NCBI GenBank assembly: GCA_025055075.1 | Contig: JANWYV010000033.1 | Coordinates: 1 to 64,000, forward strand | From: Blastocatellia bacterium | GTDB taxonomy: Bacteria > Acidobacteriota > Blastocatellia > HR10 | DNA: 64,000 bases | Direction: 5' to 3' | Part shown: positions 39,621 to 60,298 of the stretch, in pieces | How the letters are laid out: the number at the start of each line of letters is the position of its first letter | How positions within the stretch are numbered: position 1 is the stretch's first letter | The notes under the pieces: model-generated | Told to the model about the DNA's origin: nothing | The model's database searches: none | The model's input: only the letters and a program-made list of their open reading frames with translations | Translations under genes and position numbers: made by a program

Positions 39621-42600
39621 ATGGGTGACTGGAAAAGTATCCACCGCCTCTTCCACTCCTTCTTTCCGGTTGTCCCCTCTTCGACCAATGGAGGGGTGTC
39701 GGGTCGGAAAATCGTCGTTTTCGCCGTGTTCGTCGCGCTGATGCTGAGCGGGCCTTCGGGCCTCGCGCAGTTGCGCATTGTCGGTTCCGTCTCCGGGGTC
39801 ATCGAGGATCCAATGGGGGCTGTCGTCCCGAATGCGAAAGTGGTGTTGAAGGACGTGAAGACCGGGATCACGAAAGAGACGACCTCTAGCGAACGAGGGA
39901 CGTTCTTCTTCCCGGACCTGGCCAGCGGGGTGTACGAGATCACGGTGACGGCGCCGGGGTTCCAGACGGCGGTCGTTCCCAACATCATCGTCTCGACGAG
40001 CCAGACGACGGACGTGCGCATTCGCCTGGAAATCGGTCAAATGACCGAGACCGTCGAGGTCGTAGGCGGGTCATCGCCCGTTTTGGAGACGACCTCGCAA
40101 TTGGTGGTGAGCACGATCCCAAAGGAGACGATCACGCGGTTGCCGTTGGCCAATCGCAGCAATGTGCTCGCGCTGGCGCGGCTCGCTCCAGGAGCTGCTC
40201 CGGCCACGGGCGGTAGCACACGGTATAACAATCTAGCGGGTGGAGCGCTCAACGTCACCGTGGACGGGATCAACAATGCCTCCATCGGATATAAGAGTGG
40301 TGGGACGGTTTTCTACATGACTGTTCCTGTCCGACTTGGGGCCGTGGAGGAGGTCTCCATTGAGACCGGGGGATTAGGTGCGGATTCCGGAGCACAAAGC
40401 GGTACGAACATTAAGTTCACGACGCGACGCGGCGGAAGCGAGTACCACGGTAGCCTCTTCTACGAGCCGCAGAGCGAGAAGTTCAATGCTAATACCTGGG
40501 CTCGAAATGCCCAGGGCTTGCCGCGGGTTCGATTTCGCCGTCACGACTACGGAGGGAACTTTGGCGGCCCCTTGATTCCTTTCGGTCCGTTCAAGAAGAA
40601 GATGTTCATCTTCGTGAACTTCGAGCGACGGTTGCAACCCATGCGGGTCGCGAGCACGGTCACTGTGCCAACGCCGGAGGCGCAGCGCGGGATTTATGCC
40701 TACATCGTCAGCGGCACGACGGACCAAGTGCGAACCGTGAACGTCTTAGAGCTGGCGGCGGCCAGGGGCCTGCCCACGCGTTTGGATCGCGTGACCCAGG
40801 CCATCTTAGCCCTCCACAACGAAGTCCCCAAGTACGCGACGCGGATCCCCGATGATGATCTCAATCGAGACACCTATGCGTGGGATGAGGAGAACAACCT
40901 CTATCAGTATTTCCCCACTGTGCGATTCGACTACCACATCACACCGGGGCAACAATTCACGTTCACCTGGAACTACTACCACAGTTGGCAACCGGGGCAA
41001 CGGCGTCTTCCTGTGCCGGGCGTGAATCGCGTCAATCCCTTCCGCTTGGGCTACTTCATCTGGTCCATGGCATTGCAGTCTACCTTCTCTTCACGGACGT
41101 TCAATGAATTTCGCTATGGCGTGCAGCATAGCGGCGATACCAATACACGCGCCGAGTATGGTCTCTACTATCAGTTCGACGGGAAGCCACTGCGGATCGG
41201 CACGACACTGCCCTTTAATGTGACGGTTCCGTTCATTGATCAACAGAACGTGACGGGACGGCACTACATCACGACGATTTACGACACGCTGACGCTCCAT
41301 CGGGGCGAGCACACGATCACACTCGGCGGCAGTCTCCGGAGGAGCGTGTGGAACGACACGGCCGAAGTCTTCCCACTGCCCACGTACACGACGGGGACGC
41401 CTTCCGGCGATCCATTGCAAGCGGCCACGGCATTCACGACCGCGACGATTCCAGGGATCAATCCCACACAGCTCGGAGAGCCCTTGGCTCTATACAACCT
41501 CTTGGTGGGGCGAGTGGCCGCCGCGAACTTCACCCGCGTCGTGAATCCGGATACCTTCCGGTACGACGGGTTCATCAACTACACGTGGACGAATTCTCTC
41601 ATGGGGGGCGTCTACGCGCAGGATCGCTGGCGGGTCACACGAGATCTCACGCTGAACTACGGGTTGCGGTGGGAGATCCAGGGCCCGATGAAGGACGGTA
41701 AGGGGATCACGGCCGTCCCGGATATGGCGAGCGTCCTGAGTGGAGGTGCGCCACTGCTCTATGTGGGGCGCATCCCGTACAAGACCGACTGGCGCAATCT
41801 CGCCCCGAACTTCGGCTTCGCGTGGAATCCCTCTCGAACATCGGGCCTCTGGGGCAGGCTCTTGGGCGATGCGAAGACCGTCATCCGCGCGTCCTATGGG
41901 ATCGTCTACTATGACGAAGGGACGCAGTTCTTCGCCGCCAACCTGGGCCCCAACGTGGGGAAATTCATCAACGCGATCACCCTCATTCCAGGGCAACCGG
42001 GGCAGACGAACCTGCCAGCCTTCTATACGCTCTCGGACATCGTGGCGAATCCCTTGACCGTGTCCTCATTCGCGTTCACCACGACCGAGTACAAAAAGGT
42101 CGTCAATCAGGCGGATCAGACGTTCGCGCGAACGATCAATGGCTTCGATCCCACGCTCCGCGCTCCGTACACGATCAACTGGAACTTCGGCATCCAACGC
42201 GAGCTGTGGAAGGATTCGGTGCTGGAAATCCGATATGTGGGGAACACGTCGAAGCTCTCTTGGCGCACCAGCAACTTGAACGAGGTGGATATCTTCAGGA
42301 ACGGATTTCTGGAGGAGTTCAGGAACGCGCAGCGGAATCTCGCCATCAATCAGGCAGCGGGCGTCAATAGCTTCCAATATCGAGGGCTCCCGGGTCAGGT
42401 GCCGTTGCCCATCTTCGATGCGGCTTTCGGGGCTCGCGGGGGAGTTCCGCCCATTGCTCCTGGTTCGGGGTATCAAAATCCGACCTTCATCACCCAGTTG
42501 CAAACCGGAGCGGCCGGCGCGCTGGCGACGACGCTGGCCACGAATCCGAACTACGTATGCCGGATGTTCGGGAGCGCCTTCAGCCCGTGCTTGCGAATTG

Positions 42601-43502
42601 ATCCCCGCTATAACGCACCCGGTCCTTACCCGATCAATTTCTTCTTGCCCAATCCGTACGTCGCGGGACGTCTGGGCTATGTGGACGATACGGGGTGGCA
42701 CAGCTACAACGGGTTGCAAATCCAGCTCCGGCAGCATCTACGACGTGGGTTGACGTGGACGACGAACTACACCTGGAGTAAGAGCCTCACCAATCTCGCC
42801 GTGGATAATCAGAATCAGAGCCTCGACTTCCTGACCTTGCGCAACGTTCGCTTGAACAAGCGAGTCTCGCCCTTCGACATTCGCCATGTCATTCAGTCCT
42901 TCGGAACGTACGACTTGCCGATCGGGCGCGGACGTTGGCTGTCCATCAATAATCGCGTTCTCAATGCCGTGATCGGGGGATGGACGCTCGGCTCGATCTT
43001 CGTGTTCCAGACGGGGGCGCCAATCCAACTAACCGGCGGGTTCCAAACGGTCAACAACACGAACAACCCGGCTGCCAGTGGCGTATGGTTGGCTCCGGGA
43101 GTCACGCTGAAGCAGATCGAGAAGATGTTCAAAGCGCCGCTCCAGCGCTTGACGGGTCGGGCGGGGATGACCGATCTGCAGCGCCTCGCCGTGGATCCAA
43201 GGTTGGTCGGTCCAGATGGGCGAGCGAATCCACAGTTCCTGATCCCGAATTCCACGCCAGGCGAGTTCGGACAACTGATCTTCCTACGCGATCGGAATAC
43301 GTTCCAATGGGACGTCTCGCTCACGAAGGAATTTCAGCTCGCGGAGAAGACGCGCCTGGAGCTGTTCGCCAGCTTCAATAACGTCCTGAATCATCCGCGG
43401 TGGGGATTCCCTAATGCCAACGTCTTCAGCACGACGTTCGGCGTCGTGGGCGCACCGACCGGCAATCGCACGATCAATCTGCGCGCGACGCTCAACTTCT
43501 AG
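39621..43502 (+). CDS. Oar-like TonB-dependent receptor with carboxypeptidase-regulatory-like domain
   Basis: A 1293-residue outer-membrane protein. It has an N-terminal extension and signal peptide (about 30-50, ending GLAQ), then a carboxypeptidase-regulatory-like beta-sandwich (about 55-140: GSVSGVIEDPMGAVVPNAKV, GFQTAVVPNIIVS), then a plug-like region with LPLANRSNVLALARL and VTVDGINNASIG, and a ~22-strand barrel to the C-terminal aromatic (LRATLNF). Large families of such receptors are characteristic of Acidobacteriota and are thought to import oligosaccharides or peptides; the ligand is unknown. AAGGAGGG lies 6 nt before the ATG. It is monocistronic, followed by a strong terminator. Confidence 0.9.
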   Translation: MGDWKSIHRLFHSFFPVVPSSTNGGVSGRKIVVFAVFVALMLSGPSGLAQLRIVGSVSGVIEDPMGAVVPNAKVVLKDVKTGITKETTSSERGTFFFPDLASGVYEITVTAPGFQTAVVPNIIVSTSQTTDVRIRLEIGQMTETVEVVGGSSPVLETTSQLVVSTIPKETITRLPLANRSNVLALARLAPGAAPATGGSTRYNNLAGGALNVTVDGINNASIGYKSGGTVFYMTVPVRLGAVEEVSIETGGLGADSGAQSGTNIKFTTRRGGSEYHGSLFYEPQSEKFNANTWARNAQGLPRVRFRRHDYGGNFGGPLIPFGPFKKKMFIFVNFERRLQPMRVASTVTVPTPEAQRGIYAYIVSGTTDQVRTVNVLELAAARGLPTRLDRVTQAILALHNEVPKYATRIPDDDLNRDTYAWDEENNLYQYFPTVRFDYHITPGQQFTFTWNYYHSWQPGQRRLPVPGVNRVNPFRLGYFIWSMALQSTFSSRTFNEFRYGVQHSGDTNTRAEYGLYYQFDGKPLRIGTTLPFNVTVPFIDQQNVTGRHYITTIYDTLTLHRGEHTITLGGSLRRSVWNDTAEVFPLPTYTTGTPSGDPLQAATAFTTATIPGINPTQLGEPLALYNLLVGRVAAANFTRVVNPDTFRYDGFINYTWTNSLMGGVYAQDRWRVTRDLTLNYGLRWEIQGPMKDGKGITAVPDMASVLSGGAPLLYVGRIPYKTDWRNLAPNFGFAWNPSRTSGLWGRLLGDAKTVIRASYGIVYYDEGTQFFAANLGPNVGKFINAITLIPGQPGQTNLPAFYTLSDIVANPLTVSSFAFTTTEYKKVVNQADQTFARTINGFDPTLRAPYTINWNFGIQRELWKDSVLEIRYVGNTSKLSWRTSNLNEVDIFRNGFLEEFRNAQRNLAINQAAGVNSFQYRGLPGQVPLPIFDAAFGARGGVPPIAPGSGYQNPTFITQLQTGAAGALATTLATNPNYVCRMFGSAFSPCLRIDPRYNAPGPYPINFFLPNPYVAGRLGYVDDTGWHSYNGLQIQLRQHLRRGLTWTTNYTWSKSLTNLAVDNQNQSLDFLTLRNVRLNKRVSPFDIRHVIQSFGTYDLPIGRGRWLSINNRVLNAVIGGWTLGSIFVFQTGAPIQLTGGFQTVNNTNNPAASGVWLAPGVTLKQIEKMFKAPLQRLTGRAGMTDLQRLAVDPRLVGPDGRANPQFLIPNSTPGEFGQLIFLRDRNTFQWDVSLTKEFQLAEKTRLELFASFNNVLNHPRWGFPNANVFSTTFGVVGAPTGNRTINLRATLNF

Positions 43503-46543: not shown

Positions 46544-48610
46544 TCAAAACGCGATCTTCAGGCTGCCGGTCAGCGTGTGAGCGCGATAGTCCTCCAGGGC
46601 GAATCCCTTCTGATTGTATCCGTACCAACGCCAGCCGACGCTCCAGGTGAACCGCTTCGGGAACGTGTAGGCGATCATCCCCCGCGGCTGATGGAAGTTG
46701 AGGGGGAGCGTCCCTTGCGCATTCACGATGGAATACCCGAGGGCCAGCCGAAGATTGCGAAGCGGGGAGACCATGAGGTCGCCGTCCACGAAATTATCGT
46801 TCGCCACATATTGCGAGGATTCGATCGTTCGCAAGCGCGGATGCAAGACGAGGATCGCCGACGTGATATCCGCGCGCGTGTAGGTGAGTGAGAGGGCGAA
46901 GCGTTCATTGGGCGTCCACAGGGTCGTGAGCGTCAAGCCGCGATTTCGGTGCACGTTATCCACGAGCGGATTGGGATTGCGCGCGTCGGTCACCAGAAGC
47001 TGGAGGCTGAACGTGAGCGAGGAGAGGGGGCGGTATTGAGCACGGGTGCGAAGCCGCGTGAGGCGACGTGGAGCCACACGGGTGAAGACGTTGTCGCTCG
47101 AGCCGCGTTCGATTTGGGTGAAGAGGCGAAAAGCGGGACTCACGCGGAGGCTGAGCCCACCGAGGACGGCATGCGCGTTCAACTCCGATTCCTCGCGCTC
47201 GTCCGCTTCCGGTCGGTGAAACGAAACCCGCCGATGGGCGAAGCGATGGCCGGCGCGAAGGACGATGCGCGGAGTGAGTTCCACAGCGCCTTCGACGTAA
47301 TTGGAGAACGAATCCACAGATGTGCGCGCGCCGAACCATTCCGCGACCGAGCGCGTGAGAGGCGAAGGAAGGGCGCCGCGCAGGTTCGAGCCGAGCTGTT
47401 GCTCCGTGCGCGTGCGCACATCTCCGGCGATCGTGAAATGCTGAAATCGCGCGGTGTTGGTGAAGGTGAGGCGCCGATGCGGACGATAATTCACGCTGGC
47501 GTCGGCGAGAGCATTAGGACGCGAAGCGTGCGCGAGGCTCGTCGAAGTCTGCGCCGTGACGTATCGAAGGACGGAGAGGTCGAAGAGATTGCCGGTCGCC
47601 CGCTCCTGACGCGTGAAGTCCACGCTGGCGTCGCTGTAAGCGAAGCGTCCGCTCAGCAGCAGCGTGCGATGCAGATGCCCATGCAGCCCTAAGCGCGTCG
47701 TCGGCACGAAGCCGCGAATCCCGCTGTCGCGCGCGAACGTCTGCAGGAAGATCTGTTGGGGGTTGGTCGAAGTCGGATTGGCCGGATTCCGACTATTCCC
47801 CAAATTGATCGTCCCTTCGGGCTGAGTCGTGTGAATATCGTCTTTGAACGCGCGAAAGCCTTGCTCCACCGTGAAGTGCAGGCGCCCGAGACGGAAATCC
47901 ACTCCCACGCGATAATCGTCCGTCGTCGTGCGCGGTGGATCCAGAAGCACGAATTCATCCAAGTCGGTGGGGAAAGTGGTGAACGCAGAGCCGAATTGCG
48001 CGTTACGCTCGTATTCGAGACGGATGCGGAAATCGGCATCGGGGAAGAGCGTCAGGCGATATTCCGATCGGCGGCGAGCGGTGTTCATGCTGTGCTGGCC
48101 GAGTTGCTCTCCACGTCCCAGAAGAGGATTGGCGAACGTCGGCAGGAAGTTGTAGTACACGATTCGGCTGTAGCCGAAGTCAAAACGGTAGAGGCCGCGT
48201 TTCTCCACGCGCAGGCTCGCGACGTTATACGGATCGCCGCCCCAGCTCGTCATCGTGTAGGTGAGCAGATCGAAGAGCGATCCCGTGTTCTCCGGATATC
48301 GGGAGGTGAAGGAGAGACCGAGCAAGCGCGCTCCTTCACCCAGGTTGATCTGGCTGCGATAGAGATCGCGATTTCCTCCGAGGAAGAGTTGGCGCCATCC
48401 GAATTCCAATTCGCTCTGCGCGATCATTCGTCCCAGGCGGAGGCCTTCTTGCGCCGGTTGGGCAGCGCTCTCCTGGGCACGCGATTCTCCAGCCGTCAGC
48501 CCGAAGAGGCTGATGAGCAGAGCGAGAACGGCCCATCTCCTCGCGCGAGGTGTGAATCGGGATGCCGAAAGCGCAATGCCGGAATCGGCCTCGCCATTGG
48601 GAACGCGCAT
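46544..48610 (-). CDS. MtrB/PioB-type outer-membrane beta-barrel of a porin-cytochrome conduit
   Basis: A 688-residue protein with a signal peptide (MRVPNGEADS... then RRWAVLALLISLFGLTAGESRA-QE, about 23-46) and repeated amphipathic beta strands with alternating aromatic residues to a terminal Phe. That makes it a large barrel of the MtrB/PioB class. Such barrels hold a decaheme cytochrome inside, and the DmsE-family decaheme gene ends 11 bp upstream, which supports the call. ATG 48610 follows AGGAGGGGGAG; the open frame runs 77 codons further but overlaps the decaheme gene. The CxxC near the N-terminus of proteobacterial MtrB is absent. It is the last gene of the operon. Confidence 0.78.
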   Translation of the reverse strand: MRVPNGEADSGIALSASRFTPRARRWAVLALLISLFGLTAGESRAQESAAQPAQEGLRLGRMIAQSELEFGWRQLFLGGNRDLYRSQINLGEGARLLGLSFTSRYPENTGSLFDLLTYTMTSWGGDPYNVASLRVEKRGLYRFDFGYSRIVYYNFLPTFANPLLGRGEQLGQHSMNTARRRSEYRLTLFPDADFRIRLEYERNAQFGSAFTTFPTDLDEFVLLDPPRTTTDDYRVGVDFRLGRLHFTVEQGFRAFKDDIHTTQPEGTINLGNSRNPANPTSTNPQQIFLQTFARDSGIRGFVPTTRLGLHGHLHRTLLLSGRFAYSDASVDFTRQERATGNLFDLSVLRYVTAQTSTSLAHASRPNALADASVNYRPHRRLTFTNTARFQHFTIAGDVRTRTEQQLGSNLRGALPSPLTRSVAEWFGARTSVDSFSNYVEGAVELTPRIVLRAGHRFAHRRVSFHRPEADEREESELNAHAVLGGLSLRVSPAFRLFTQIERGSSDNVFTRVAPRRLTRLRTRAQYRPLSSLTFSLQLLVTDARNPNPLVDNVHRNRGLTLTTLWTPNERFALSLTYTRADITSAILVLHPRLRTIESSQYVANDNFVDGDLMVSPLRNLRLALGYSIVNAQGTLPLNFHQPRGMIAYTFPKRFTWSVGWRWYGYNQKGFALEDYRAHTLTGSLKIAF

Positions 48611-48621
48611 ATCTCCCCCTC

Positions 48622-49653
48622 CTATTGGAAGAAGAAGCGATTGACGTTGGAGCCGTGAACCTTCACGTGACACGTCGTGCAATTCTGAAAGCGCGGTTGC
48701 CGAATGTCGTGAAAGGCGGTCGGTTCTGATCCCAAAATCCCCGGCGTGAGCGTATGGCATTCCAGGCAGAGCTGGTCTACGCGCGGGCGCGTGAGGAGTC
48801 GCGGATTGTTCGAGCCATGCGGGACGTGGCAGCTCATGCACCCCTCGAGCTTCACCGGCACGTGCTCGAAGACGAACGGCCCTTGTTTATCCGTGTGGCA
48901 TTTCAGGCAGATCGTGTCCGTCCCGCCCAAGACGTCGCGCACCTGCGCCACGTTGAACCCGCCGTGGGGATTGTGACAGGTCGTGCAGCTCATCCCCCCT
49001 TCGTGGACGCGATGACGGAAAGGTTTGGTGAAGTCCTGGCGGACCTCGCCGTGACATTCGTAGCACAGCTCGGGCAAGCGCTTTGTCAGGAGGTCCTCCA
49101 GGAGAGCTGGCGAATGCGCGGAGTGGCAATCGGTGCACGCGACCTGGCTCAAGCCATGCTCGGATTGACGGAAATTATGCCGCTCTTCTTGCCGCTCATG
49201 GCAGGTGATGCAGCGCGCGTTCTGTTCGGAGACGGAGCGCCCGCGGAACGAGAAGATCTTCGTCGCATCGCCCCCGCTTTCGATATGCTCTCGACCTGGC
49301 CCGTGACACGCTTCGCACCCTTTCTCCGCCTCCTTATATTTCGGACTGGTGATGGTCAGAAAGTGTGCCGTTCGCGTGAAATGCGTATAGAGGTCTTCGT
49401 GGCACATCTTGCAGGCTTCGGACCCAGCATAGGGGCTCTCCGGTTGTTGCGAGGAGAGGAATGACGTCCACCGCGCACCAACGTCAGTCCGCTCAGGAGG
49501 CGCTGTTCCCGGTTTCGATCGAACCGTTCGTTCGGTGCCGAGGACGAAGCCAAGTGTCAGTCCAAGGAGCACGGCGGCGAGAACGCTGGGGCGCAGGAGG
49601 ACGCGTCCGAGGTCCCGCCTCATGCGCGAAAGGGAGTGGGCGCGCGTCGTCAT
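48622..49653 (-). CDS. DmsE-family decaheme c-type cytochrome
   Basis: A 343-residue periplasmic cytochrome with ten CxxCH heme-binding motifs, in order CKMCH, CEACH, CITCH, CTDCH, CYECH, CTTCH, CLKCH, CMSCH, CLECH and CTTCH. The spacing matches MtrA/DmsE/PioA decahemes, which thread through the MtrB barrel. A hydrophobic N-terminal segment (about 22-42) is a signal peptide or anchor. ATG 49653 is used, with GAGGTG before it, three bases after the upstream gene's stop. Predicted role: carrying electrons from periplasm to the outer-membrane surface. Confidence 0.9.
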   Translation of the reverse strand: MTTRAHSLSRMRRDLGRVLLRPSVLAAVLLGLTLGFVLGTERTVRSKPGTAPPERTDVGARWTSFLSSQQPESPYAGSEACKMCHEDLYTHFTRTAHFLTITSPKYKEAEKGCEACHGPGREHIESGGDATKIFSFRGRSVSEQNARCITCHERQEERHNFRQSEHGLSQVACTDCHSAHSPALLEDLLTKRLPELCYECHGEVRQDFTKPFRHRVHEGGMSCTTCHNPHGGFNVAQVRDVLGGTDTICLKCHTDKQGPFVFEHVPVKLEGCMSCHVPHGSNNPRLLTRPRVDQLCLECHTLTPGILGSEPTAFHDIRQPRFQNCTTCHVKVHGSNVNRFFFQ

Positions 49654-49656
49654 CAC

Positions 49657-51144
49657 TCACCTCACACCGTTGACGTTCTCCCGAATGTTGAGCTGCTGCA
49701 AGATCGGCGGATTCGGCTCTTCGATGGCCAGAAGTGTATGGCAGAGGTCGCAGCTTTGGCTGATGGTCCGCCCGTCTTTGCTCACGTGTTGCTCGTCATG
49801 GCAGCGGAAGCAGCCAGGGAACCGCGTGTGTCCGATGTGATCCGGATATGTCCCCCAGGTCACCTTCATCGAGGGGAAGACATTCCGGCGGTAGATGGCA
49901 TGCAGCTCGCGGATCGCGGCCTCGATCACCTCGCGGCGGGAGCGGAAGACGTCGGGATACTTCTCCTGGTAGAATGCGCGGACGCGCCGAGCGATCTCTT
50001 CGGCCGCATCCCCCGACGTGTTGGCCGCTGCGCGCAGGACTTCGACGCCGAGTTTCTTGATGTAGGGGAGCGTGCGATCAATGCGGCCGGCGGCCAAGGC
50101 TTCGTCCATCGCTTGATCCGGGAGCTTGAAAATGTGCGTCGGGCGATTGTGGCAGTCAATGCAATCCATGACGCGACGTTCGGCACGAGCCAGTTGCTCA
50201 GGCGTCAATTGCGCGTCCTGGGCGACGAATTCCGTGACGCGTCCGTCGGCCTCGCGCACTTGAATCCAGGGGATGATCTGTCGCTGCTTGTCGGCGGCGA
50301 TGTAGATCGTCTGTCGGTTCGGCGCGATGTGCCAGCTATGGATGCCGCCGTAGCCGGACGTGCCGCCGCCGATATGCATGAGGAGGACGGTCTTGAGTGG
50401 CGTGTTCGCTTCATCTTCGGCGAAGCGCGTGATGATCTTAACCCGATCTCCGGTGAATTTCTCCGGCCAGTGGCATTGCTCGCACGTGTCGCGCGACGGA
50501 CGGAGGTTTTCGACCGGCGTCGGAATCGGGCGCGAGTACGTGTTGAGCGCCGTCGCGAAGACCTGTCCTACGCCCGAGAGCTTCGAGCGCACGAACCACG
50601 GGGCGCCGGGACCGATGTGGCACTCGACGCATTTCACGCGGGAGTGCGGCGAGCCGAGATAGGCCGTATATTCCGGTTCCATGACGGTGTGGCACACGGT
50701 GCCGCAGAATTCGACCGAATCCATGTAGGTCACGCCCTTGTACGTCGTCAGGGAGATGATGAACAGATTGACGACCGTGAGGATGCTCACGATCCCGGCC
50801 GTGCGTCGTACCGAGGCGCGGTTGAAATCAATGCACGGATAGGGATCGTGCGAAGTTGGATTCGTCGAAGCACCGCGCTTGAGCATCCGCTTTCGCTCCC
50901 AATACAGACCAACGGGGATCAGAAGGAGCCCGAAGACGAACACTCCCGGCAGAACGAGGAACGCCATGATCCCGATGTACGGCGTGTCATAGAAGCCGAG
51001 CAGGCCGAGGATCATGAACGCGAGGATGAGCAGGGCGCTAATGGTCGTGAGGGTTCCTCCCAAAGCCGTGATCCAGTTTCGGCCCACCAAGCGCATCAGG
51101 TCCCAGAACCATAGTTTCAAACGTTTGATCATCCCACCGATCAT
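49657..51144 (-). CDS. NapC/NirT-type membrane multiheme cytochrome (ImcH-like)
   Basis: A 495-residue inner-membrane cytochrome with three hydrophobic segments before the hemes (about 25-45, 55-80, 115-135). It then has one CxxxCH (CGTVCH) and five CxxCH motifs (CVECH, CEQCH, CIDCH, CFRCH, CDLCH), six in all. The first heme segment, EFCGTVCHTVMEPEYTAY, is the NapC/NirT-type quinol site, where the distal Met is axial ligand. The layout resembles Geobacter ImcH, a quinol oxidase for high-potential acceptors, which has seven hemes. It overlaps the upstream gene by 4 bp (ATGA). Confidence 0.85.
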   Translation of the reverse strand: MIGGMIKRLKLWFWDLMRLVGRNWITALGGTLTTISALLILAFMILGLLGFYDTPYIGIMAFLVLPGVFVFGLLLIPVGLYWERKRMLKRGASTNPTSHDPYPCIDFNRASVRRTAGIVSILTVVNLFIISLTTYKGVTYMDSVEFCGTVCHTVMEPEYTAYLGSPHSRVKCVECHIGPGAPWFVRSKLSGVGQVFATALNTYSRPIPTPVENLRPSRDTCEQCHWPEKFTGDRVKIITRFAEDEANTPLKTVLLMHIGGGTSGYGGIHSWHIAPNRQTIYIAADKQRQIIPWIQVREADGRVTEFVAQDAQLTPEQLARAERRVMDCIDCHNRPTHIFKLPDQAMDEALAAGRIDRTLPYIKKLGVEVLRAAANTSGDAAEEIARRVRAFYQEKYPDVFRSRREVIEAAIRELHAIYRRNVFPSMKVTWGTYPDHIGHTRFPGCFRCHDEQHVSKDGRTISQSCDLCHTLLAIEEPNPPILQQLNIRENVNGVR

Positions 51145-53252
51145 CTTGCTTCCTCTCCCGAAGCGGGGGGATCCCTATGCGGATTCCCCGTGACCTCTGC
51201 CGAAGCCTCCACCAAGTCTTCCGAAGGAGCGAGGGGGTGGGCAGAGACTGCCGCGCCTTCCGGAGCCACATCACGGGGAGCAGCCTCGACGTTTTCCGCC
51301 GGGCTGGCCGTCGCAAGGCGCGCGTAATCCAGCGGATGCTCATGCTGATACCATCGAGCCGAGACGCGCCCGTCGAGCCATGCCCAGTTCATGGGATAGA
51401 CATCCGGATCGAAGATGACGTGATAGAGGTGCCAGATGAAGATGGCAAGCGTCGCCAGCACGGCCTCGTAGAAGTGGATCGCGAGGGCGACGTCCACGAC
51501 CCATCCCGGAAGCCATCGCGTCGTCTGCGCCTTGAACCACACCATCAATCCCGTCACGCCCATGATGATCGTTCCCCAGACGAGCGCCCAGTACTCGAAC
51601 TTCTCGATGTAGCTGCACCGATCGAACAGCGGACGGTTGGGGCTTAGACCGAAATAGTAGCGCATGTTTTGAATGAGATCGGCGAGGTCCTTCCGCCCCG
51701 GGCGCATGTCGCGCCAAACCTGTCGGCCTTCGGGTGTCGCTATAATGTAGACGAGGTGGTAGGCTCCAACGCCGAGCAACACCACACCGGCCACTCGATG
51801 GGCGATTCGACGGAAGGCTTCGCTGGAACCGAGCAGCCACGCTAACCAAGAATCCGGATACTTCAACGCGAAGCCCGTGAGCACGAGCGTGAAGAAGCTC
51901 GTCAGAAGGAGCAGGTGTTGCCATCGTTGTCGCGACGTCAGGCGAATGATCGAACGGTCCTCGAGCGCGCGCCGCGCTAGGGCTTTCTTTCGCCACATCG
52001 CCCCATTGTGCAACACCATCAAACCGATGGTGATGGCGATGAGCCACAGGTAGAGACGTCGCACCCATTGTTTGGCAATGCTCCCGATGTCTTCGGAGAC
52101 GGGGACTTCCGCATGAATCTTCACGCGCGCGAAATTCTCGCTGGCCCCCGGATGACATTGCCCGCAGGTGCGCACGAGATTGGCTTTGTGCACCATGGAG
52201 CGCGGATCGGAGGAGGGAAGGATGTTATGGACGCCATGGCAACTGGCGCAGTTGGCGACGACCGTGGAGCCGAGTCGCGAGGCGCGTCCGTGATAGCTGT
52301 CCAGATAGGTGCTCACTCGTCCACCCGGCACACCGAATTCCTGCGTCAGGCGAACGCCTTCGTGGCATTGTCCGCACGTCGTGCGCGCGAGTGCTTGTTG
52401 CGCGACCGGGGAGGTCGGATCAATATGCGGCTTGATCAGGTGAATGCCGTGGCAATCCGTACATACGGGCGATTGCCAATTCCCTCGGCGAATGGCCTGG
52501 CCATGGATGCTCTCCATGAACTCGTCGCGGATGCTCGCATGGCATTGGCCGCAGGTCCCTGGCACATTGAATTTGAAGATAGGCGACTTCGGATCTGCTC
52601 CCGAACGCACGTCGTGGCTGTGGTGGCAATCGGTGCACACCGCCGCGCGCGTGGATCCGGCCGCGACCGCTCGCCCGTGAACGCTCTGCTGATAGGCGAA
52701 GAACGGCTGCGTGGTGATCCCCGCAGGCTCCACGACGAACTGCACGCCGTGACAAGCCCCGCAGGTTTGAGGGATATTCGTACGATGCGTCTTCGATCGT
52801 TGGTCGCGCGAAGGTAAAATCGTGTGCGCATTGCCGTGACAGTCGGTGCAGCTCGCCCCTCGCGCGCGTCCATCTCGCGTGGCCTTGGCGTGCAGGCTCT
52901 CCGCATAGGCGGCTTCGGCGTCCGGGTGGCAAGTGGCGCAGGAGACTTTCTGCGGCGGCGGCTCATGCGGATAGTCCCGAACATCCGTATGACAATCCAC
53001 GCATTCGAAAGCGCCATGGACCGACGCCTTGAACGCGCGCTCGCTGACGTGAACGCTCACGGTCTGGCCGTTCACCGACTTGCTCAGATTCGGATCATTG
53101 TGACAGGCCAAGCATTCGGCCGAGCTCGGCCGCGGAGCCGGTGCGCGGCGGGACGTTTGCGCGTACGTCGGCCAGCTGAGGGCCAAGAGAACAAGCAAGA
53201 GAACGAGAATGAACGAACCGCGCGCGCATTCGCGCCAACGAGGTTTCCTCAT
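51141..53252 (-). CDS. Multiheme c / cytochrome b fusion (CbcL-like quinol oxidase)
   Basis: A 703-residue inner-membrane protein: signal peptide (about 10-32), a periplasmic part with eleven CxxCH motifs (about 45-380: CLACH, CVDCH, CATCH, CTDCH, CGACH, CTDCH, CGQCH, CTDCH, CGQCH, CASCH, CGQCH), and a C-terminal b-type cytochrome with five or so membrane helices carrying His pairs (HNGAMW, WQHLL, AHRVAG, YHLVYI, IWHLYHVIF). That order is shared with Geobacter CbcL, a quinol oxidase for low-potential acceptors, which has nine c hemes. ATG 53252 is chosen just before the signal peptide; GTG 53282 and ATG 53273 are alternatives. It is first of four genes in the conduit operon. Confidence 0.87.
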   Translation of the reverse strand: MRKPRWRECARGSFILVLLLVLLALSWPTYAQTSRRAPAPRPSSAECLACHNDPNLSKSVNGQTVSVHVSERAFKASVHGAFECVDCHTDVRDYPHEPPPQKVSCATCHPDAEAAYAESLHAKATRDGRARGASCTDCHGNAHTILPSRDQRSKTHRTNIPQTCGACHGVQFVVEPAGITTQPFFAYQQSVHGRAVAAGSTRAAVCTDCHHSHDVRSGADPKSPIFKFNVPGTCGQCHASIRDEFMESIHGQAIRRGNWQSPVCTDCHGIHLIKPHIDPTSPVAQQALARTTCGQCHEGVRLTQEFGVPGGRVSTYLDSYHGRASRLGSTVVANCASCHGVHNILPSSDPRSMVHKANLVRTCGQCHPGASENFARVKIHAEVPVSEDIGSIAKQWVRRLYLWLIAITIGLMVLHNGAMWRKKALARRALEDRSIIRLTSRQRWQHLLLLTSFFTLVLTGFALKYPDSWLAWLLGSSEAFRRIAHRVAGVVLLGVGAYHLVYIIATPEGRQVWRDMRPGRKDLADLIQNMRYYFGLSPNRPLFDRCSYIEKFEYWALVWGTIIMGVTGLMVWFKAQTTRWLPGWVVDVALAIHFYEAVLATLAIFIWHLYHVIFDPDVYPMNWAWLDGRVSARWYQHEHPLDYARLATASPAENVEAAPRDVAPEGAAVSAHPLAPSEDLVEASAEVTGNPHRDPPASGEEAR

Positions 53253-53780
53253 CTGCCCCGTTCTTCTCGTCATCGAGCTCACATCGCGTATGCAAGCCGC
53301 GTGCCGTCCTCGATTATCTCGCCGAAATCCGACCTATTCCTCGCAAGATGATCGAGTTGACCAACACAAGTATAACCGATGCCGAGTGGGGGATTACACC
53401 CGAAGCGGGCCTTCTCACTCAGGGTATGGAAAAGAAGCGCCGGTTCGGGAGCTTGGGGACTCCCGAGACGAGAATGCTGCAGCGTGAATCGAGCGCTCCC
53501 TTCGAAGCTCGTTCTCGCGACAATGGCAGGGAATTTCACCCGATGAAGGGGCTGATTCCCCGATATTGGAGATCGGCAGTGGACTTCGAGAGCTTCGCCC
53601 GTGCAGCCAGGCACCCGCTCTCTCAAGGCTCTTTGGTCTTCGAGAGGACGTCCATCGCCCGCCTGGGATGTCGTTTGCCAAACCCTATATTGCGGGCGAG
53701 ATCGCACAGGTCCCGCTCAGTTGTGCGGTGTGCGTGCGAGGATTTTAGGATGGGCGCAGGCCTCCTGTGAGGAAGCGCCG

Positions 53781-53798
53781 CTGTGACTTTGGTCACAG
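53781..53798. promoter_or_regulatory. CRP/FNR-superfamily binding site (perfect palindrome)
   Basis: CTGTGAC-TTTG-GTCACAG is a perfect 18-bp inverted repeat. The core TGTGA-N6-TCACA is identical to the E. coli CRP consensus. It stands ~530 bp upstream of the leftward CbcL-like operon and ~90 bp upstream of a possible rightward small frame. No Crp/Fnr gene is in the window. Confidence 0.55.
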
Positions 53799-53888
53799 TC
53801 TTCGCCGCCGAGGGCGAGGTAGATGTCGCCGCGACGGCGATGGACCAATCGCAAATCGGTTCGAGTAGTGAGCGCGAGGAAAGACGCC

Positions 53889-54080
53889 ATGCGTGAAAGG
53901 AATGAGCGCCTCAAGCGAACCCCGGAGGGATTTTTCTTCGCCTTCGTTCTCTTCGCCATTGCCCGTGTGGGCATCGGTCTGGGCGTGCGGCGGTGGCTGC
54001 CGCCACTTGCGTCCGAACATGGAGCCGGTTATCCACCACTTTCTGCCGTCGAGCGAAGGGTACTTAGCTCGCGCCCGTGA
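53889..54080 (+). CDS. Possible small membrane protein
   Basis: A 63-codon frame with a basic N-terminus (MRERNERLKRTPEG), one strongly hydrophobic helix (FFFAFVLFAIARVGIGLGV, residues 15-33) and a polar tail. No good ribosome binding site is visible and I do not recognise a family. The helix and the CRP-type palindrome 90 bp upstream are the only support. It could be a chance frame. Confidence 0.3.
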   Translation: MRERNERLKRTPEGFFFAFVLFAIARVGIGLGVRRWLPPLASEHGAGYPPLSAVERRVLSSRP

Positions 54081-54364
54081 CAACGCCGTGAATCCTCGGC
54101 ATGATGCGCTCCATCGCCTTTTCCTTCAGCCCGCCGAAGAGTTTCTCTCGACGCGGTGTGCGATATGCCGAAGCGGGTTCATGAGTTGACCGGAAGGGCG
54201 GCGATGGGGCAGGGGATTCAATCGTGGGATCCTCTTTCTGCTCATAGTCCCCTTCGGGATCGTGGGAGGGATCGCTGCGCTCATCTAGAGAGCGCAGCGT
54301 CGCAGGCGTCGCGAGGGGCTTCCGCATGTCGAGCGAACGCGTGCGGAAACCCCTCAGCAGCGGC

Positions 54365-54733
54365 TCACTTCTTCGCCAGCGAGCGGATGAAGGCGACCAG
54401 GTCCCAAATCTCCTTCTCCTTCAGCTTGTCCTTATACCCGGGCATGAGCTTGGACTTCCCCAGCGCGGCTCCGCCTTCCGCCGTGATCTTATAGAGGTCC
54501 TGATCGCTGTATTTGGCCATTGCTGTCGGATTCGTCCAGTCCGTGAGCTTCACCGTCCTGACCGCCTTCATAGCGGGACCATCACCTTTTCCCTGCTCGC
54601 CATGGCAGCGTTGGCAGTGTTTGATGTGCAGCTCTTTCCCGACCTTAGGATCTCCCTTCCCTTGCGCCCACAAGGGAAGGGCAACCCCCGTTGCTACGAG
54701 CAATGCCAGCATCCCGTGCGTGATTCGCTTCAT
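54365..54733 (-). CDS. Small monoheme cytochrome c, periplasmic
   Basis: A 122-residue protein: signal peptide (MKRITHGMLALLVATGVALPLWAQ, cleaved near 24), then a class-I cytochrome c with CQRCH followed by GEQGKGDGPAMK, a downstream Met ligand candidate in KLMPGYKDKL and the C-terminal helix EIWDLVAFIRSL. It is a soluble electron shuttle. ATG 54733 follows AGGAGGAG; the frame extends upstream without support. It follows the OmcA/MtrC-family gene by 131 bp in the same direction and could connect periplasmic carriers to either conduit. Confidence 0.9.
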   Translation of the reverse strand: MKRITHGMLALLVATGVALPLWAQGKGDPKVGKELHIKHCQRCHGEQGKGDGPAMKAVRTVKLTDWTNPTAMAKYSDQDLYKITAEGGAALGKSKLMPGYKDKLKEKEIWDLVAFIRSLAKK

Positions 54734-54864
54734 CAATCCTCTCCTCCTTATCCTGATTCTCGCCCCCGTGACATTATAGCACCGTCTCACTCCCCGGCCA
54801 TGGAGGAAGAACCACGACCTCCCGGGCACCCCGACGAAAGGACCCTTTCGTCCATTTGCGTGCG

Positions 54865-56877
54865 CTAGCGAATCTCGCCGACGAGAAGCGCATGGACTTT
54901 CGAGACGGCGAAGGTCCTCCCTTCGCCGTGGCACACGTTGCATGTCTCGACTGATCCCGTCGTGTTGATGAACGCGTGCGCTTCGGCCGAGAGACTATCG
55001 TGGCAGGAGACACACGCGGTCGAGGTCGGCGGCGTCGGGTTCTGGAAACCGCGCGGCGTGACCGTCGCGCGCGTGGCGCGCACTGGCAACAGATACGTTC
55101 CCGGCGTGTGGCAGAGCTGGCAATTCTTCAAGCTCGCCGGGAAGCGCACTTCGTTGTAGGGGACGGGCTGCCGCGCGAAATTGTAAACCGTGTACTCGCG
55201 CTCCAACTGCACGCCTCGATGGATCTTGTGGATGAGGAGCTTGAAATCAATGCTCTCGGGCGGCATTCGATCGGCGGGCCGCCGCACCTCATCGGTGCTG
55301 GTCGGATTGTGACAGATGACGCAGTGCTCGATGTTGTTGTTGCGATTGTCCCCGTGCGTACGAAGCGAATCGTGGCACTTCAGACAACTGCGCAGATCCA
55401 CGATCTGCCGCCGTGCGATCGGCCGCGCGTCAGTGACGGCGAAGTACCTGACGACGTTATCTCCGGCATCGCGCACCGTGTTCGCGGGATCCCCCGGAGC
55501 CGCCGGACCCGGATTGAGCGTGATGTTCCGGTACCCCTCGATGCCCACGACGTAAGTCCCTCGCGCATCGGCCGGAAGAGGGGTGCGGAACGTATAGCGG
55601 TAATTCCCTTCGGGATCCGGTCCGATGGCGCCGCGCGCATCCTCGCTCACCCACCATGCATAGTCGGTCGTGGGCCCGCCGAGCACGAGCGCCAGACGCG
55701 TCATCGCGCTCGGAGCGATGGGGCGACCCGAGCGGTCCCGAATCTTGAAGAGCACGGTCGGCGCGCGCCCCGGTGCCGTGTCCGTCACGCCCGTGATCTC
55801 GAAAACGACGCCCGGGAGCTGCCGAGACTTAAAGGGGATCGCGTGCGCGCCTGCTACCGAGAGATCGAACTCCTCGCCCGATGTGGGGAGGTGGCAGCGG
55901 CCGCAGCGCGTGTCGTCGCGTTGGATGATGCCGGCATGGTTCTCTCCCGTGGCGAAGTTCACGTTGTCGTGGCAAGACCCACAGGTCGCTCGCGAGAGTT
56001 GCGTGAGATAACTATCGGCTTGCGTCGCTCCGGCGGCATGGCATGTCGTGCAATTGCGAATGTCTTGAGGGAATCCGACCGTGGAGAAATCATAGACTCG
56101 TCCCATGAAGCCGATGATCCGGTAGGGCCTTCCTGCGCGCACGCTCGGCAGATCGCGCCCGCGGTGGATCTTGTGGATCATGACCTCGAAATCTGTCGTG
56201 TTCCCCGTGTCCGGGTCTACTGTCTGCGGTTGATGGCAGAGGACGCACGTTTTAACGGTCACGTAGCGTCCCCCGTGCGCTTGCAGTTGATCGTGGCACT
56301 GATTACAAGCTGCTGTGGTCACCACATCCCGGACCGTCGAGACTCGGCCGCCGGCCGGAATGAAATCGAAGGTCGCGTTGGCCACGAATCGCTTCCCCAA
56401 GGTCGCCGTGAGATCGCGCACGGCCGAGATCCCCACCGTGTGCGTGACCGTCGGATCATAGGTCGCTGGCAGGACTGTCCCCGACGTGTAGACGACGGTC
56501 CCATCCGGGGAATCCGAGAACGTCCCGCCGGTGTCCACCCACGCCTGCGACACGGTTCCAAGCACGGCCCCCGTCTGCGAGCGCGTCGTGTAAGCCGTAT
56601 ATTGCCGATCTCCTCGGTTGATGCGAGCGAGGATCACGTTGATCTCCACTCGGCCTTCGGTTCGCACGCCGGTCCGATCCAGAGGCTGGCCGCGATCATC
56701 GGTCAACCGGAAGGTCACGACCACTCGTCGTTCCGGAGAGACCGTGGCGCTCAGGATCTGAATCTGCACTCCGGTGCTCACAGCAACTTGAGCGTCCGTC
56801 GGCCGATCGTTTCCGATCAAGATGGCGAAGAGCAGTAACGCGCCGAACATGAATGCCCCGACGAGTCTCTTCTTCAT
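54865..56877 (-). CDS. OmcA/MtrC-family decaheme c-type cytochrome
   Basis: A 670-residue multiheme protein with ten CxxCH motifs in two pentaheme clusters: CNQCH, CVLCH, CTTCH, CGSCH, CGRCH, then CLKCH, CVICH, CQLCH, CVSCH and CNVCH. Beta-sandwich stretches lie before each cluster (about 30-190 and 365-470), the OmcA/MtrC domain plan. Shared signatures include VMIHKIHRGRDLP and LLIHKIHRGVQLE. These cytochromes act at the cell surface as terminal reductases for metals or other extracellular acceptors. The N-terminus (MKKRLVGAFMFGALLLFAILIG...DAQ) is a signal peptide with no lipobox Cys, so unlike Shewanella MtrC/OmcA it should not be a lipoprotein. Confidence 0.9.
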   Translation of the reverse strand: MKKRLVGAFMFGALLLFAILIGNDRPTDAQVAVSTGVQIQILSATVSPERRVVVTFRLTDDRGQPLDRTGVRTEGRVEINVILARINRGDRQYTAYTTRSQTGAVLGTVSQAWVDTGGTFSDSPDGTVVYTSGTVLPATYDPTVTHTVGISAVRDLTATLGKRFVANATFDFIPAGGRVSTVRDVVTTAACNQCHDQLQAHGGRYVTVKTCVLCHQPQTVDPDTGNTTDFEVMIHKIHRGRDLPSVRAGRPYRIIGFMGRVYDFSTVGFPQDIRNCTTCHAAGATQADSYLTQLSRATCGSCHDNVNFATGENHAGIIQRDDTRCGRCHLPTSGEEFDLSVAGAHAIPFKSRQLPGVVFEITGVTDTAPGRAPTVLFKIRDRSGRPIAPSAMTRLALVLGGPTTDYAWWVSEDARGAIGPDPEGNYRYTFRTPLPADARGTYVVGIEGYRNITLNPGPAAPGDPANTVRDAGDNVVRYFAVTDARPIARRQIVDLRSCLKCHDSLRTHGDNRNNNIEHCVICHNPTSTDEVRRPADRMPPESIDFKLLIHKIHRGVQLEREYTVYNFARQPVPYNEVRFPASLKNCQLCHTPGTYLLPVRATRATVTPRGFQNPTPPTSTACVSCHDSLSAEAHAFINTTGSVETCNVCHGEGRTFAVSKVHALLVGEIR

Positions 56878-56936: not shown

Positions 56937-57338
56937 TTAATAGGAGACCTCCTCTTCCTTCTCCGACTCTTCAGGAGGTGTCTCTTTGAGGCGTTGGATC
57001 GTCGCTCGAAGCCAGCGTTTCACCGCCTCCTGCAGCCGCTCTTCATCCCCCGTTCGTTCGAGCGAAGCGACCGTCTCCCCCGCCTCATTCAATGGGATGA
57101 AGTGGCAGGGGAGATGCTCTTGGCGGTGCTCCTCCGGGACGAAATCCAAGAGGACGCATCCCTCGTGGCATTCCGGAGGATGGTCGGGGACGAACCAGTG
57201 GTTGATGCAAACGACCGAATGCTGGAACATCGGTCGCGGCTTCCATGGTTCGCGTACCGAGCGCCCATATCCCCCACCTTCGAGGATATCCAGCTCGGCT
57301 TCGAGTAAGCGAATCAAGTCTTCTCGTCGGCCTTTCAT
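56937..57338 (-). CDS. Unknown Cys/His-rich small protein
   Basis: A 133-residue soluble protein of unknown family. Residues 40-80 contain Cys44, His47, Cys57-His58, Cys61, His71, His75 and Cys78-His79 (…VVCINHW, PECHEGC, LPCHFIPLN), which suggest a metal-binding or redox site but not a CxxCH heme motif. The flanks are helical and the C-terminal tail is Glu-rich. There is no signal peptide, so it is cytoplasmic. It lies 12 bp downstream of the receiver gene and 59 bp upstream of the OmcA/MtrC-family gene, so a regulatory or assembly role for the cytochromes is possible. Confidence 0.72.
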   Translation of the reverse strand: MKGRREDLIRLLEAELDILEGGGYGRSVREPWKPRPMFQHSVVCINHWFVPDHPPECHEGCVLLDFVPEEHRQEHLPCHFIPLNEAGETVASLERTGDEERLQEAVKRWLRATIQRLKETPPEESEKEEEVSY

Positions 57339-57350
57339 CGTCGCCTCCCT

Positions 57351-57722
57351 TTAGGACGCTGTGAGGCGAGTCGCGTTGAGGACTCGCTCGACTTCACGAA
57401 GGAAGGTCGTCACATCCGTCTCCTTCACAATATAGCGCGTGGCCAACCAGCAGGTGTAATCGTCTTGAAAGGACGTGTACGCCGTTAGCAAAATCACGGG
57501 CACGCGCGGATGCCGATGCACGATCTCTTGAAGCAGTTCGAGTCCGTTCTCCTTGCCGAGCTTAATGTCGAGGACGACGAGATCCACAGGCTCTTGTTCC
57601 AAACATCGCATGGCCTCGTTCCCAGACGATGCTTCCCGCACTTGATGCCCGTTTTCGTTCAACACCGTCGCATAAAGTAGCCGGACGTTCGGCTCATCGT
57701 CAATGAGCAGGATACGCGCCAT
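57351..57722 (-). CDS. Receiver-domain-only response regulator
   Basis: A 123-residue stand-alone receiver (CheY-like): acidic pair in LLIDDEP, phospho-acceptor Asp in VVLDIKLG, Thr in LLTAYT and the conserved Lys in YIVKETD. There is no output domain. ATG 57722 follows AAGGAGG; the open frame upstream overlaps nothing else but has no signal. It lies between the oxidoreductase genes and the cytochrome group in the same direction. No cognate kinase is adjacent. Confidence 0.9.
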   Translation of the reverse strand: MARILLIDDEPNVRLLYATVLNENGHQVREASSGNEAMRCLEQEPVDLVVLDIKLGKENGLELLQEIVHRHPRVPVILLTAYTSFQDDYTCWLATRYIVKETDVTTFLREVERVLNATRLTAS

Positions 57723-57784
57723 AGGTCCCTCCTTTCTGAGGGCGCGTGGTAGCTCCGACTTCGCCGTGAGGGCCGCGCTCCCGC

Positions 57785-59236
57785 TCATCGCGCGCTCACA
57801 TACTCCAGGCCTGCTCGCAGGCTCTTCACATTCAGCTCCACAAGCGGGTGGCTCTCGACCATCTGCTCCAACGCGGCGATCACGACCTCGATCGGGAGCA
57901 CCCTCGTGAGCCCTAGGTAGGCGCCGAGCGCCACCATGTTCGCAGCCTTCACGCTGCCAAGGTGATCGGCGATTTGCGTCGCCGGCACCGGGAGGGTCTC
58001 CACGTCAGCTCGTCGCGGCCGCACGGGGATGAGCGAGGAATCATAGAGGATCAAGCCGCTCGGGATGACCTCCGGCTCGAAACGTTCAAGCGAGGGCCGG
58101 TTCATGGCGATGAGCACGCTTGGCCGCGAGACCAAAGGCGAGGCGATCGGCTCCGTTGAAATCGTGACGTGGCAATGGGCCGTCCCCCCGCGCATCTCCG
58201 GGCCATAGGAGGGAAGCCAGGAGACGTGATACCCTTGCCGCATGCCCGCTTCGGCGAGCAAGCGCCCCAGGAAGAGCACGCCTTGCCCGCCGAAGCCGGC
58301 GACTTTGACGCGCGGATTCCGATATCGTGCCGGAATCTCGACCTCGTGCATCGAAGGCGCTGCTTCCACTCCCTTCAAGCCGAGTCTCGCGAGAATATCT
58401 TCCGGGGACGCCGCCGCAAGTGCGGGCATGGGAGCGCGTGCGGCTGAGGTGCCAATGGGCGGTCGTGTGGCCGAGACGTCTTTGAAGACCCCCAAGGGGA
58501 AGTACCGGAGCATCTCCTTCTGGATCCATTCGCAGGCTTGAGCAGGCGTCATCCCCCATCCCGTCGGACAGGGCGAGAGGATCTCAACGAGCGAGAAGCC
58601 ACGCCCTTCGAGCTGCACCTGAATCGCCTTGCGGATCGCCTTGCGCGCGCGCATGCGCGATTTATTATCGAAAAGGGCGACGCGCTCGATATAGGTCGGT
58701 CCCTCCAAACTGGCCAACAGTTCGCTCACCCGCAAGGGAAAACCTTCGCGTTCAGGCGCGCGCCCCATCGGTGTCGTCGTCGTGACCTGTCCGGGGAGCG
58801 TCGTCGGCGCCATTTGTCCCCCGGTCATGCCGTAAATGGCGTTGTTGATGAAGAAGGCCGTGATGTTCTCCCCACGATTCGCCGCATGGAGGATCTCGTT
58901 CCCGCCAATGGCCGCCAGATCCCCATCGCCTTGATAGCTGATGACGATGCTCTCTGGCCGCGCGCGCTTAATGGCCGTCGCAACGGCGGGAGCCCGTCCG
59001 TGCGCGGCCTGAACATTGCCCACATCGAAGTAGTAATAGGCGAAAACGGAACATCCGACGGGGCTGACCAGGATCGTGCGATCCTGAATCCCGAAATCAT
59101 CAATCGCTTCAGCGATATACTTGTGCACGTTCCCGTGACCGCATCCCGGACAATAGTGGGTCGTTCGCGGATCGCCGGGCTTGCGCTCAAACACCCCATA
59201 GATACTCTTCGGCTTCCCGTAGGCTCGTACGTACAT
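57785..59236 (-). CDS. 2-oxoacid:ferredoxin oxidoreductase, fused beta-gamma subunits
   Basis: A 483-residue fusion. Residues ~1-245 are the TPP-binding beta subunit ([25 protein letters not shown], the TPP-metal motif [12 protein letters not shown] with [12 protein letters not shown]). After a linker (about 255-295), residues ~305-480 are the gamma subunit ([36 protein letters not shown]). It oxidises 2-oxoacyl groups with CoA and reduces ferredoxin. The substrate (2-oxoglutarate or branched chain) is not decided. The gene starts inside the alpha gene, overlapping it by 50 bp, with GAGGAAG before the ATG; a GTG at 59194 is a shorter alternative. Confidence 0.88.
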
Positions 59237-60287: not shown

Positions 60288-60298
60288 TGCTTCCCTCC

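Follow-up and report, generated by a model that had tools for sequence, protein, structure and literature searches.

In model bacteria such as Geobacter, the enzymes by which electrons enter at the inner membrane and the conduit that crosses the outer membrane in extracellular electron transfer are mainly known as separately encoded parts; CbcL and ImcH, in particular, are taken here to be encoded apart in that genus. The locus described in this study lies on contig JANWYV010000033.1 of a Blastocatellia bacterium (Acidobacteriota; draft genome of 3.02 Mb, 98.8% complete), the first 64,000 nucleotides of which were analyzed as a single stretch (hereafter, the window). Four tightly packed minus-strand genes at 46544-53282 encode, in transcription order, a CbcL-like cytochrome, an ImcH-like cytochrome, a DmsE-type decaheme cytochrome and an MtrB-like barrel. 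Judged from family assignments and a structural model, the locus probably encodes a full electron path from the quinone pool to the cell surface, running outward, with two quinol oxidases in parallel.

ImcH is marked by three transmembrane helices, a CX3CH motif and 5-9 CX2CH motifs, and the CbcL/MtrH/MtoC family by an N-terminal half with 3-23 CX2CH motifs and a b-type membrane half; the same survey reported no mtrAB or mtoAB adjoining imcH, and described an mtr cluster of Rhodoferax ferrireducens in which two cymA genes and mtrH accompany mtrABC (PMC6295460). The mtrCAB clusters of group 5 Acidobacteriia were found with no inner-membrane quinone oxidoreductase nearby (PMC8805035). The ImcH and CbcL homologs of Desulfuromonas acetexigens have consecutive accessions, from which adjacency was inferred (PMC12133095), those of D. 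soudanensis are DSOUD_0207 and DSOUD_0214 (PMC4914508), and a Holophaga genome contains porin-cytochrome complexes (PMC7399161). In the open-access PubMed Central literature, to which the search was limited, no account was found of cbcL-imcH together with mtrAB in Acidobacteriota.

The minus-strand run comprises the following features:

54865..56877, minus strand: OmcA/MtrC-family decaheme c-type cytochrome, predicted surface terminal (TIGR03507)
54365..54733, minus strand: small monoheme c-type cytochrome, possible periplasmic shuttle (Cytochrom_C)
53283..54364, no strand: interval of 1082 bp without an assigned gene, between the monoheme c gene and cbcL
51141..53282, minus strand: cbcL-like gene, 713 aa; hydrophobic N-terminus, 11 CXXCH, then a cytochrome b561/FdnI-type domain
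49657..51144, minus strand: imcH-like gene, 495 aa; three N-terminal transmembrane segments, CX3CH, five CXXCH
48622..49656, minus strand: dmsE/mtrA-like decaheme c-type cytochrome, 344 aa; 10 CXXCH (TIGR03508)
46544..48610, minus strand: MtrB-like outer-membrane sheath barrel, 688 aa; assigned by the fold match of its model

All four genes that a preliminary description of this DNA had called tightly packed were found, with spacings of -4 nt (cbcL/imcH), 0 (imcH/dmsE) and +11 nt (dmsE/barrel). They overlap or abut and are likely co-transcribed. Four stop-to-stop frames of the window held two or more CXXCH motifs (10, 5, 11 and 10), and no frame in 200 single-base shuffles of the window held more than one; the heme-rich frames are therefore not due to chance.

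The product of 51141-53282 is, by its sequence features, a CbcL/MtrH/MtoC-type fusion of an 11-heme c-type half and a b-type half, as had been claimed. It scored 48.6 bits against Ni_hydr_CYTB (cut-off 30.1), and its membrane half matched FdnI (E 1.6e-16). Four of its histidines (His456, His495, His603 and His618), invariant in 17/17 CbcL-like sequences, aligned with histidines of FdnI, whose His18, His57, His155 and His169 we take to be the b-heme ligands. Hydropathy, a crude measure, gave five hydrophobic regions besides the N-terminus; six transmembrane helices are expected in the family. The 11 CXXCH motifs of the N-terminal half lie inside the family's published range.

The product of 49657-51144 is, on similar grounds, an ImcH-type NapC-like cytochrome and a predicted quinol oxidase. 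It scored 37.8 bits against Cytochrom_NNT (PF03264, NapC/NirT; cut-off 24.1). Three N-terminal transmembrane helices (hydropathy peaks at residues 32-50, 57-75 and 112-133) are followed by a CX3CH at residue 147, beside the membrane domain, and by five CXXCH, a CX2CH count inside the published range; the six-heme NapC/NirT protein that had been described was thus recovered. The protein is 50% identical to the product of a gene at a Geothrix fermentans DSM 14018 locus (L085), which is probably the published ImcH. When checked against nitrite and trimethylamine N-oxide (TMAO) families, it fell far below the cut-offs of the NrfH model (48.6 bits; cut-off 134.2) and the TorC model (28.9 bits; cut-off 455), and NrfH was the sole relative that its profile found among solved structures. 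An AlphaFold2 (AF2) model of the protein, based on 11 sequences, was of low quality (pLDDT 53.5); a fold search with it gave no match at E 0.001, and the model was not used. Searches of plasmids for CbcL and ImcH with tblastn gave no match.

Compared with Geobacter sulfurreducens, both families are present here with their published marks (PMC6295460). The difference is that cbcL and imcH abut in one run with an mtrAB-type pair; CbcL also has 11 c-hemes here (there 9) and ImcH five CX2CH (there 6), a comparison by description rather than by sequence.

The DmsE protein, claimed as a decaheme, indeed has ten CXXCH motifs and scored 255.3 bits against TIGR03508 (cut-off 192.2); against the GSU2203 family (NF041028), it scored 211.5 bits, below the curated cut-off of 325. 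Its best solved relative was 6r2q_A (E 1e-38), which is labelled "Cystathionine beta-synthase" in the structure listing, the entry 6r2q itself being titled "Structure of the Mtr complex". Chains A and B of that entry are assumed here to be MtrA and MtrB, respectively.

The ATG at 48610, preceded by AGGAGGGGG, is a better start for the barrel than the GTG of the open reading frame (ORF) at 48841. An AF2 model of the barrel (21 sequences; pLDDT 85.3, pTM 0.75) matched 6r2q_B in Foldseek (E 1.6e-14, TM-scores 0.65/0.69), with TonB-type receptors listed next (query TM-scores 0.35-0.42), and in VIA-align (Z 24.6 over 561 residues, 3.3 Å; next barrel Z 17.0). It had been set down beforehand that the barrel should model as a decaheme sheath, and the AF2 model gives the MtrB-type sheath fold. 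According to this model, the barrel would work like an MtrB sheath, though curated models do not file it as a member of the family; the MtrB-type barrel originally described stands by fold and not by the curated cut-offs. In the GSU2204 family (NF041027), 12 of the 21 barrel sequences matched at E ≤0.1 (best 2.7e-9), the window's own barrel scoring 12.8 bits (E 0.036), below the curated cut-off of 350.

The OmcA/MtrC-family protein scored 488.1 bits against TIGR03507 (cut-off 209.3), contains 10 CXXCH motifs and matched MtrF (3pmq, E 1.9e-32). The monoheme cytochrome scored 49.7 bits against Cytochrom_C for the longer ORF 54365-54943; an ATG at 54733 has AAGGAGG upstream. The locus shares with Shewanella MtrCAB, and with the groups of PMC8805035, a decaheme wire, a sheath barrel (the model of which fits 6r2q_B best by far) and an OmcA/MtrC-family decaheme. 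It differs from Shewanella in that quinol entry would proceed via CbcL and ImcH instead of CymA.

The OmcA/MtrC and monoheme genes are set apart from cbcL by the 1082-bp interval (53283-54364), which probably separates two transcription units; its place is occupied in three relatives (G001, G002 and G003) by an opposite-strand ORF of 590 aa. A promoter scan of the window yielded 5 sites (2.7 expected) and was uninformative; one minus-strand promoter-like match, 53771-53742, lies between the monoheme c gene and cbcL. A terminator scan was likewise uninformative (5 sites, 7.4 expected), with none between the four genes and one within the barrel gene. An Rfam scan of the window at the gathering threshold gave no match.

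In the proposed mechanism, the CbcL-type b/c fusion and the ImcH-type NapC-like cytochrome would oxidize quinol in parallel at the inner membrane. Electrons would cross the periplasm, perhaps via the monoheme cytochrome, and be taken across the outer membrane by the DmsE/MtrA-type decaheme wire inside the MtrB-type barrel; the OmcA/MtrC-type decaheme outside would receive them from DmsE. Net flow would most likely be outward, the cell respiring minerals or other extracellular acceptors anaerobically, and the two entry enzymes may give different energy yields or redox-potential ranges. How the conduit assembles, in which direction it runs, which acceptor and quinone it uses and how the two oxidases share the work are what we infer from the parts. 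This reading is preferred because of the family scores, the heme counts, the MtrB fold match, the match of DmsE in the Mtr complex, the b-heme histidines and the recurrent co-location of the genes. Extracellular electron transfer, the role first proposed, is the likeliest one for the locus.

For the comparison of gene order, 58 genomes were searched for CbcL, 30 had some match, and 20 stretches were fetched and compared. The search of acidobacterial genomes for the same four-gene order, as had been suggested, showed that it recurs in relatives of the same genus and family, and in a Vicinamibacterales genome with a split cbcL. The order cbcL-imcH-dmsE-mtrB was complete in the organism's own genome, in two genomes of its genus (G001 and G003) and in one of its family (G005); in G002, cbcL-imcH-dmsE runs off the contig within dmsE. 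In G006 (same order), cbcL, a monoheme c gene, omcA, imcH, dmsE and mtrB lie in one direction, with monoheme c and omcA between cbcL and imcH; in G009, the cluster stops within omcA, where the contig ends. Elsewhere in this class, cbcL and imcH adjoin with mtrAB absent from the stretches read (G029, G036 and G017), or have dmsE-mtrB nearby (G031, G027 and G010, the last spread over about 14 kb). G025 has dmsE-mtrB and cbcL with no clear imcH; G013 and G047 lack imcH and combine dmsE-mtrB with a distant CbcL (31-32% identity); G026 has a barrel fragment and a distant CbcL; and G037 and G044 have a distant CbcL alone.

Near imcH in L098, L075, L110, G083 (L125), G107 (L123) and G147 (L124), CbcL is encoded by two genes, one for the 11-heme c-type part and one for the b-type part; in L091, the c-type half of a split CbcL was detected. 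Whether CbcL is fused or split thus differs among Acidobacteriota. L098 (Vicinamibacterales) keeps the window's order around the split cbcL (barrel match E 5e-15), and in G147 the genes omcA-dmsE-mtrB-cbcL(c)-cbcL(b)-imcH all point the same way. A second CbcL-type clade, with 19 hemes, was observed near imcH in ten loci (L046, L060, L061, L062, L073, L081, L083, L084, L112 and L119), most of which also have an 11- or 13-heme CbcL; they are from Acidobacteriota, with one Hydrogenedentota and one Zixibacteria record.

The locus resembles the group 5 clusters in having acidobacterial MtrC, MtrA and MtrB, and differs in that two quinone oxidoreductases adjoin (PMC8805035). A Bryobacterales palsa_243 metagenome-assembled genome (L114:416-13418) carries, all in the same orientation, omcA, omcA, dmsE, mtrB, a gene for a four-heme protein, imcH and cbcL: like group 5, it has a four-heme gene after mtrB, and unlike group 5, it has two OmcA/MtrC genes, with imcH and cbcL within 5 kb. 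The R. ferrireducens mtr cluster likewise includes quinol oxidases of two kinds, CymA and MtrH there as against ImcH and CbcL here, and the two-oxidase principle thus has a precedent.

Frequency was assessed in two samples. The first, the named ImcH loci, consisted of the best 80 of 586 confirmed relatives found with a profile of 11 Acidobacteriota sequences, many of them cut at contig ends. Within the fetched stretches of these best 80, CbcL was present in 38/80, DmsE in 14, DmsE with MtrB in 12, OmcA in 7, and CbcL, DmsE and MtrB together in 8; these proportions are biased, because the loci are the best matches to an acidobacterial profile. None of the 80 record titles named Geobacter. The hybrid arrangement that had been put forward is present here, and its CbcL-ImcH pairing is not confined to this locus.

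The second sample was an even draw of 149 Acidobacteriota genomes, surveyed for ImcH (threshold E 1e-20), CbcL and DmsE, with co-location defined as starts ≤10 kb apart. Every ImcH match was counted, along with the CbcL and DmsE matches listed for ImcH-bearing genomes, weak or partial ones being left out. ImcH was found in 66/149 genomes. Among the matches listed, CbcL lay ≤10 kb from ImcH in 26/66, a DmsE-type decaheme in 22/66 and both in 12/66; arithmetic puts the chance expectation for two random single-copy genes within 10 kb of each other in a 4-Mb genome at roughly 0.5%. DmsE was below the curated cut-off in G072, G086, G133 and G147, without which the counts are 18/66 for DmsE and 9/66 for both; a DmsE-model match that was left out (G166 C22:220792; 92 bits, cut-off 192) would raise the full counts of 22 and 12 to 23 and 13.

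Two loci, L043 and L044 (duplicates of L025 and L024, respectively), were left out before trees were made. The CbcL tree, made with a careful method, had 59 rows (≤2 CbcL per locus, ≥500 aa, ≥8 hemes; fused CbcL only), and the ImcH tree, made with a quick method, had 90. CbcL of the window's order fell inside a clade (100/99) of other Blastocatellia and Acidobacteriaceae/Korobacteraceae-type sequences. ImcH of the window's order grouped at 99% with L048 and four loci whose titles name Hydrogenedentota, away from the ImcH of the Blastocatellia that accompany it in the CbcL tree. A constraint joining it to the ImcH of these Blastocatellia was rejected by an approximately unbiased (AU) test (p-AU 0.006; L061, L111 and L122 left free), a value that is optimistic because the group was chosen with the tree already in view. 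Since the two trees place the window's order differently, they suggest that the operon is a mosaic, with CbcL from an acidobacterial lineage and ImcH from a lineage grouping with Hydrogenedentota. Instead of a replacement of ImcH, the alternative of differential loss of ancient paralogues (hidden paralogy) would give such a pattern. A separate observation concerns L102 (record titled Arcobacter sp.), the cbcL-imcH pair of which groups with the Bryobacteraceae pair L107 in both trees, by transfer or because of a mis-binned contig.

The broader reading that may be drawn from these data is tentative and, on balance, doubtful: a widespread modular acidobacterial cassette would combine both Geobacter-type quinol oxidases with a Shewanella-type MtrCAB, the window-order ImcH would have been replaced by a Hydrogenedentota-shared lineage, and the two oxidases would form one potential-dependent entry unit rather than separately encoded pathways.

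Two sets of neighbouring genes lie upstream of the conduit genes, and a third feature lies on the other side:

57785-60488, minus strand (that of the conduit genes): two-gene 2-oxoacid:ferredoxin oxidoreductase
56937-57788: response regulator, with a 133-aa ORF that matches no Pfam family, immediately before the OmcA/MtrC gene; both may be regulators
39621-43502: protein of 1293 aa that combines a carboxypeptidase-regulatory-like domain with an outer-membrane barrel domain

The rest of the host genome contained no clear second copy of CbcL, ImcH or DmsE, and PF22113 matches were confined to the OmcA/MtrC gene. For these reasons the locus appears to be the host's only conduit of the Mtr kind, the kind of porin-cytochrome that the search covered. 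Other Cytochrome_C7 matches were on contigs C1, C21, C24 and C39.

The same parts could run in reverse, an unlikely but not negligible case in which electrons from a cathode-like partner, or from Fe(II) or Mn(II) outside the cell, would pass through OmcA, MtrB and DmsE to a CbcL/MtoC-type enzyme and the quinone pool, ending at heme-copper oxidases. Inward flow is conceivable because the genome encodes two such oxidases and because CbcL/MtrH/MtoC homologs occur in Fe(II) oxidizers and beside mtoAB (PMC6295460). Outward flow is the favoured direction, since quinol oxidation is the only role in which ImcH homologs have been implicated to date (PMC6295460), and since the neighbouring 2-oxoacid:ferredoxin oxidoreductase genes would fit a heterotroph in need of an outlet for electrons.

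There is a similarly small chance that CbcL and ImcH are not alternative oxidases at all, and instead form one inner-membrane complex or two arms of one loop. The pairing in 38/80 of the best loci and in at least 26/66 surveyed genomes, together with the 4-nt overlap of cbcL and imcH in the window, would be expected of such partners. Paired CbcL and ImcH tree distances point the same way over 36 loci without the window's order (r 0.70), and less so when loci with that order are added (r 0.58, 42 loci; L038, L039 and L041, which lack ImcH, and L060 were left out, and the pairs are not independent). The AU result speaks against this reading, in that the window-order ImcH comes from a clade other than the one that CbcL would predict, as do the G008 cluster, which lacks imcH, and the 40/66 ImcH genomes without CbcL ≤10 kb among the matches listed. 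It is very improbable that the NapC/NrfH-type protein feeds a soluble-acceptor reductase (nitrite, TMAO or, as with dms clusters, extracellular dimethyl sulfoxide) and not the respiration of minerals or electrodes: for all that it has a NapC/NirT domain, NrfH as its only solved relative and a decaheme neighbour from a family named DmsE, its NrfH and TorC scores are far too low, the window has no further multiheme frame, the 28 window proteins scanned include no molybdoenzyme family (the search for such reductases being confined to the window), and the predicted terminal is an OmcA/MtrC decaheme.

Several observations weigh against the preferred reading of a complete outward conduit with parallel oxidases, beyond the heme-copper oxidases already mentioned. 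The barrel scored 18.5 bits against PF11854 (MtrB/PioB), below the cut-off of 23; it had no match to TIGR03509 at E 0.1; and its sequence profile had no match among solved structures up to E 10, a match being given by fold comparison alone. Shewanella OmcA/MtrC is lipoprotein-anchored; here the N-terminal signal region of the OmcA/MtrC protein is without a cysteine and so has no lipobox, for which reason its surface anchoring is only predicted. The gene for this protein is not part of the four-gene run: it stands 1.6 kb upstream of cbcL and not, as in Shewanella, beside the mtrA-like gene. The earlier statement that 46544-53252 is complete to the surface therefore applies to the quinone-to-barrel parts, the surface cytochrome (54865-56877) being outside that interval. 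Among relatives, G008 has cbcL-cytc-omcA-dmsE-mtrB without imcH; no full-length CbcL was found in G004 (73% complete) or G007 (78%); and L045 (J050), the ImcH of which groups with the window's order, has no CbcL, DmsE or MtrB in its 14-kb locus. Besides the ImcH genomes without a nearby CbcL, 44/66 were without DmsE ≤10 kb from ImcH among the matches listed. Finally, ImcH has apparently been exchanged relative to CbcL, and an obligate co-evolved pair is therefore disfavoured.

The occurrence of CbcL, ImcH and an MtrCAB-type conduit side by side recurs in the phylum, though two published surveys did not find them together. The locus thus updates two published statements, namely that no mtrAB was found adjoining imcH (PMC6295460) and that no quinone oxidoreductase lies near group 5 mtrCAB (PMC8805035). 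As a compact system, the cluster would allow a test of how CbcL and ImcH share the work. With ImcH, CbcL and a DmsE-type decaheme within 10 kb in at least 12/149 genomes, extracellular respiration is predicted for many uncultured Acidobacteriota.

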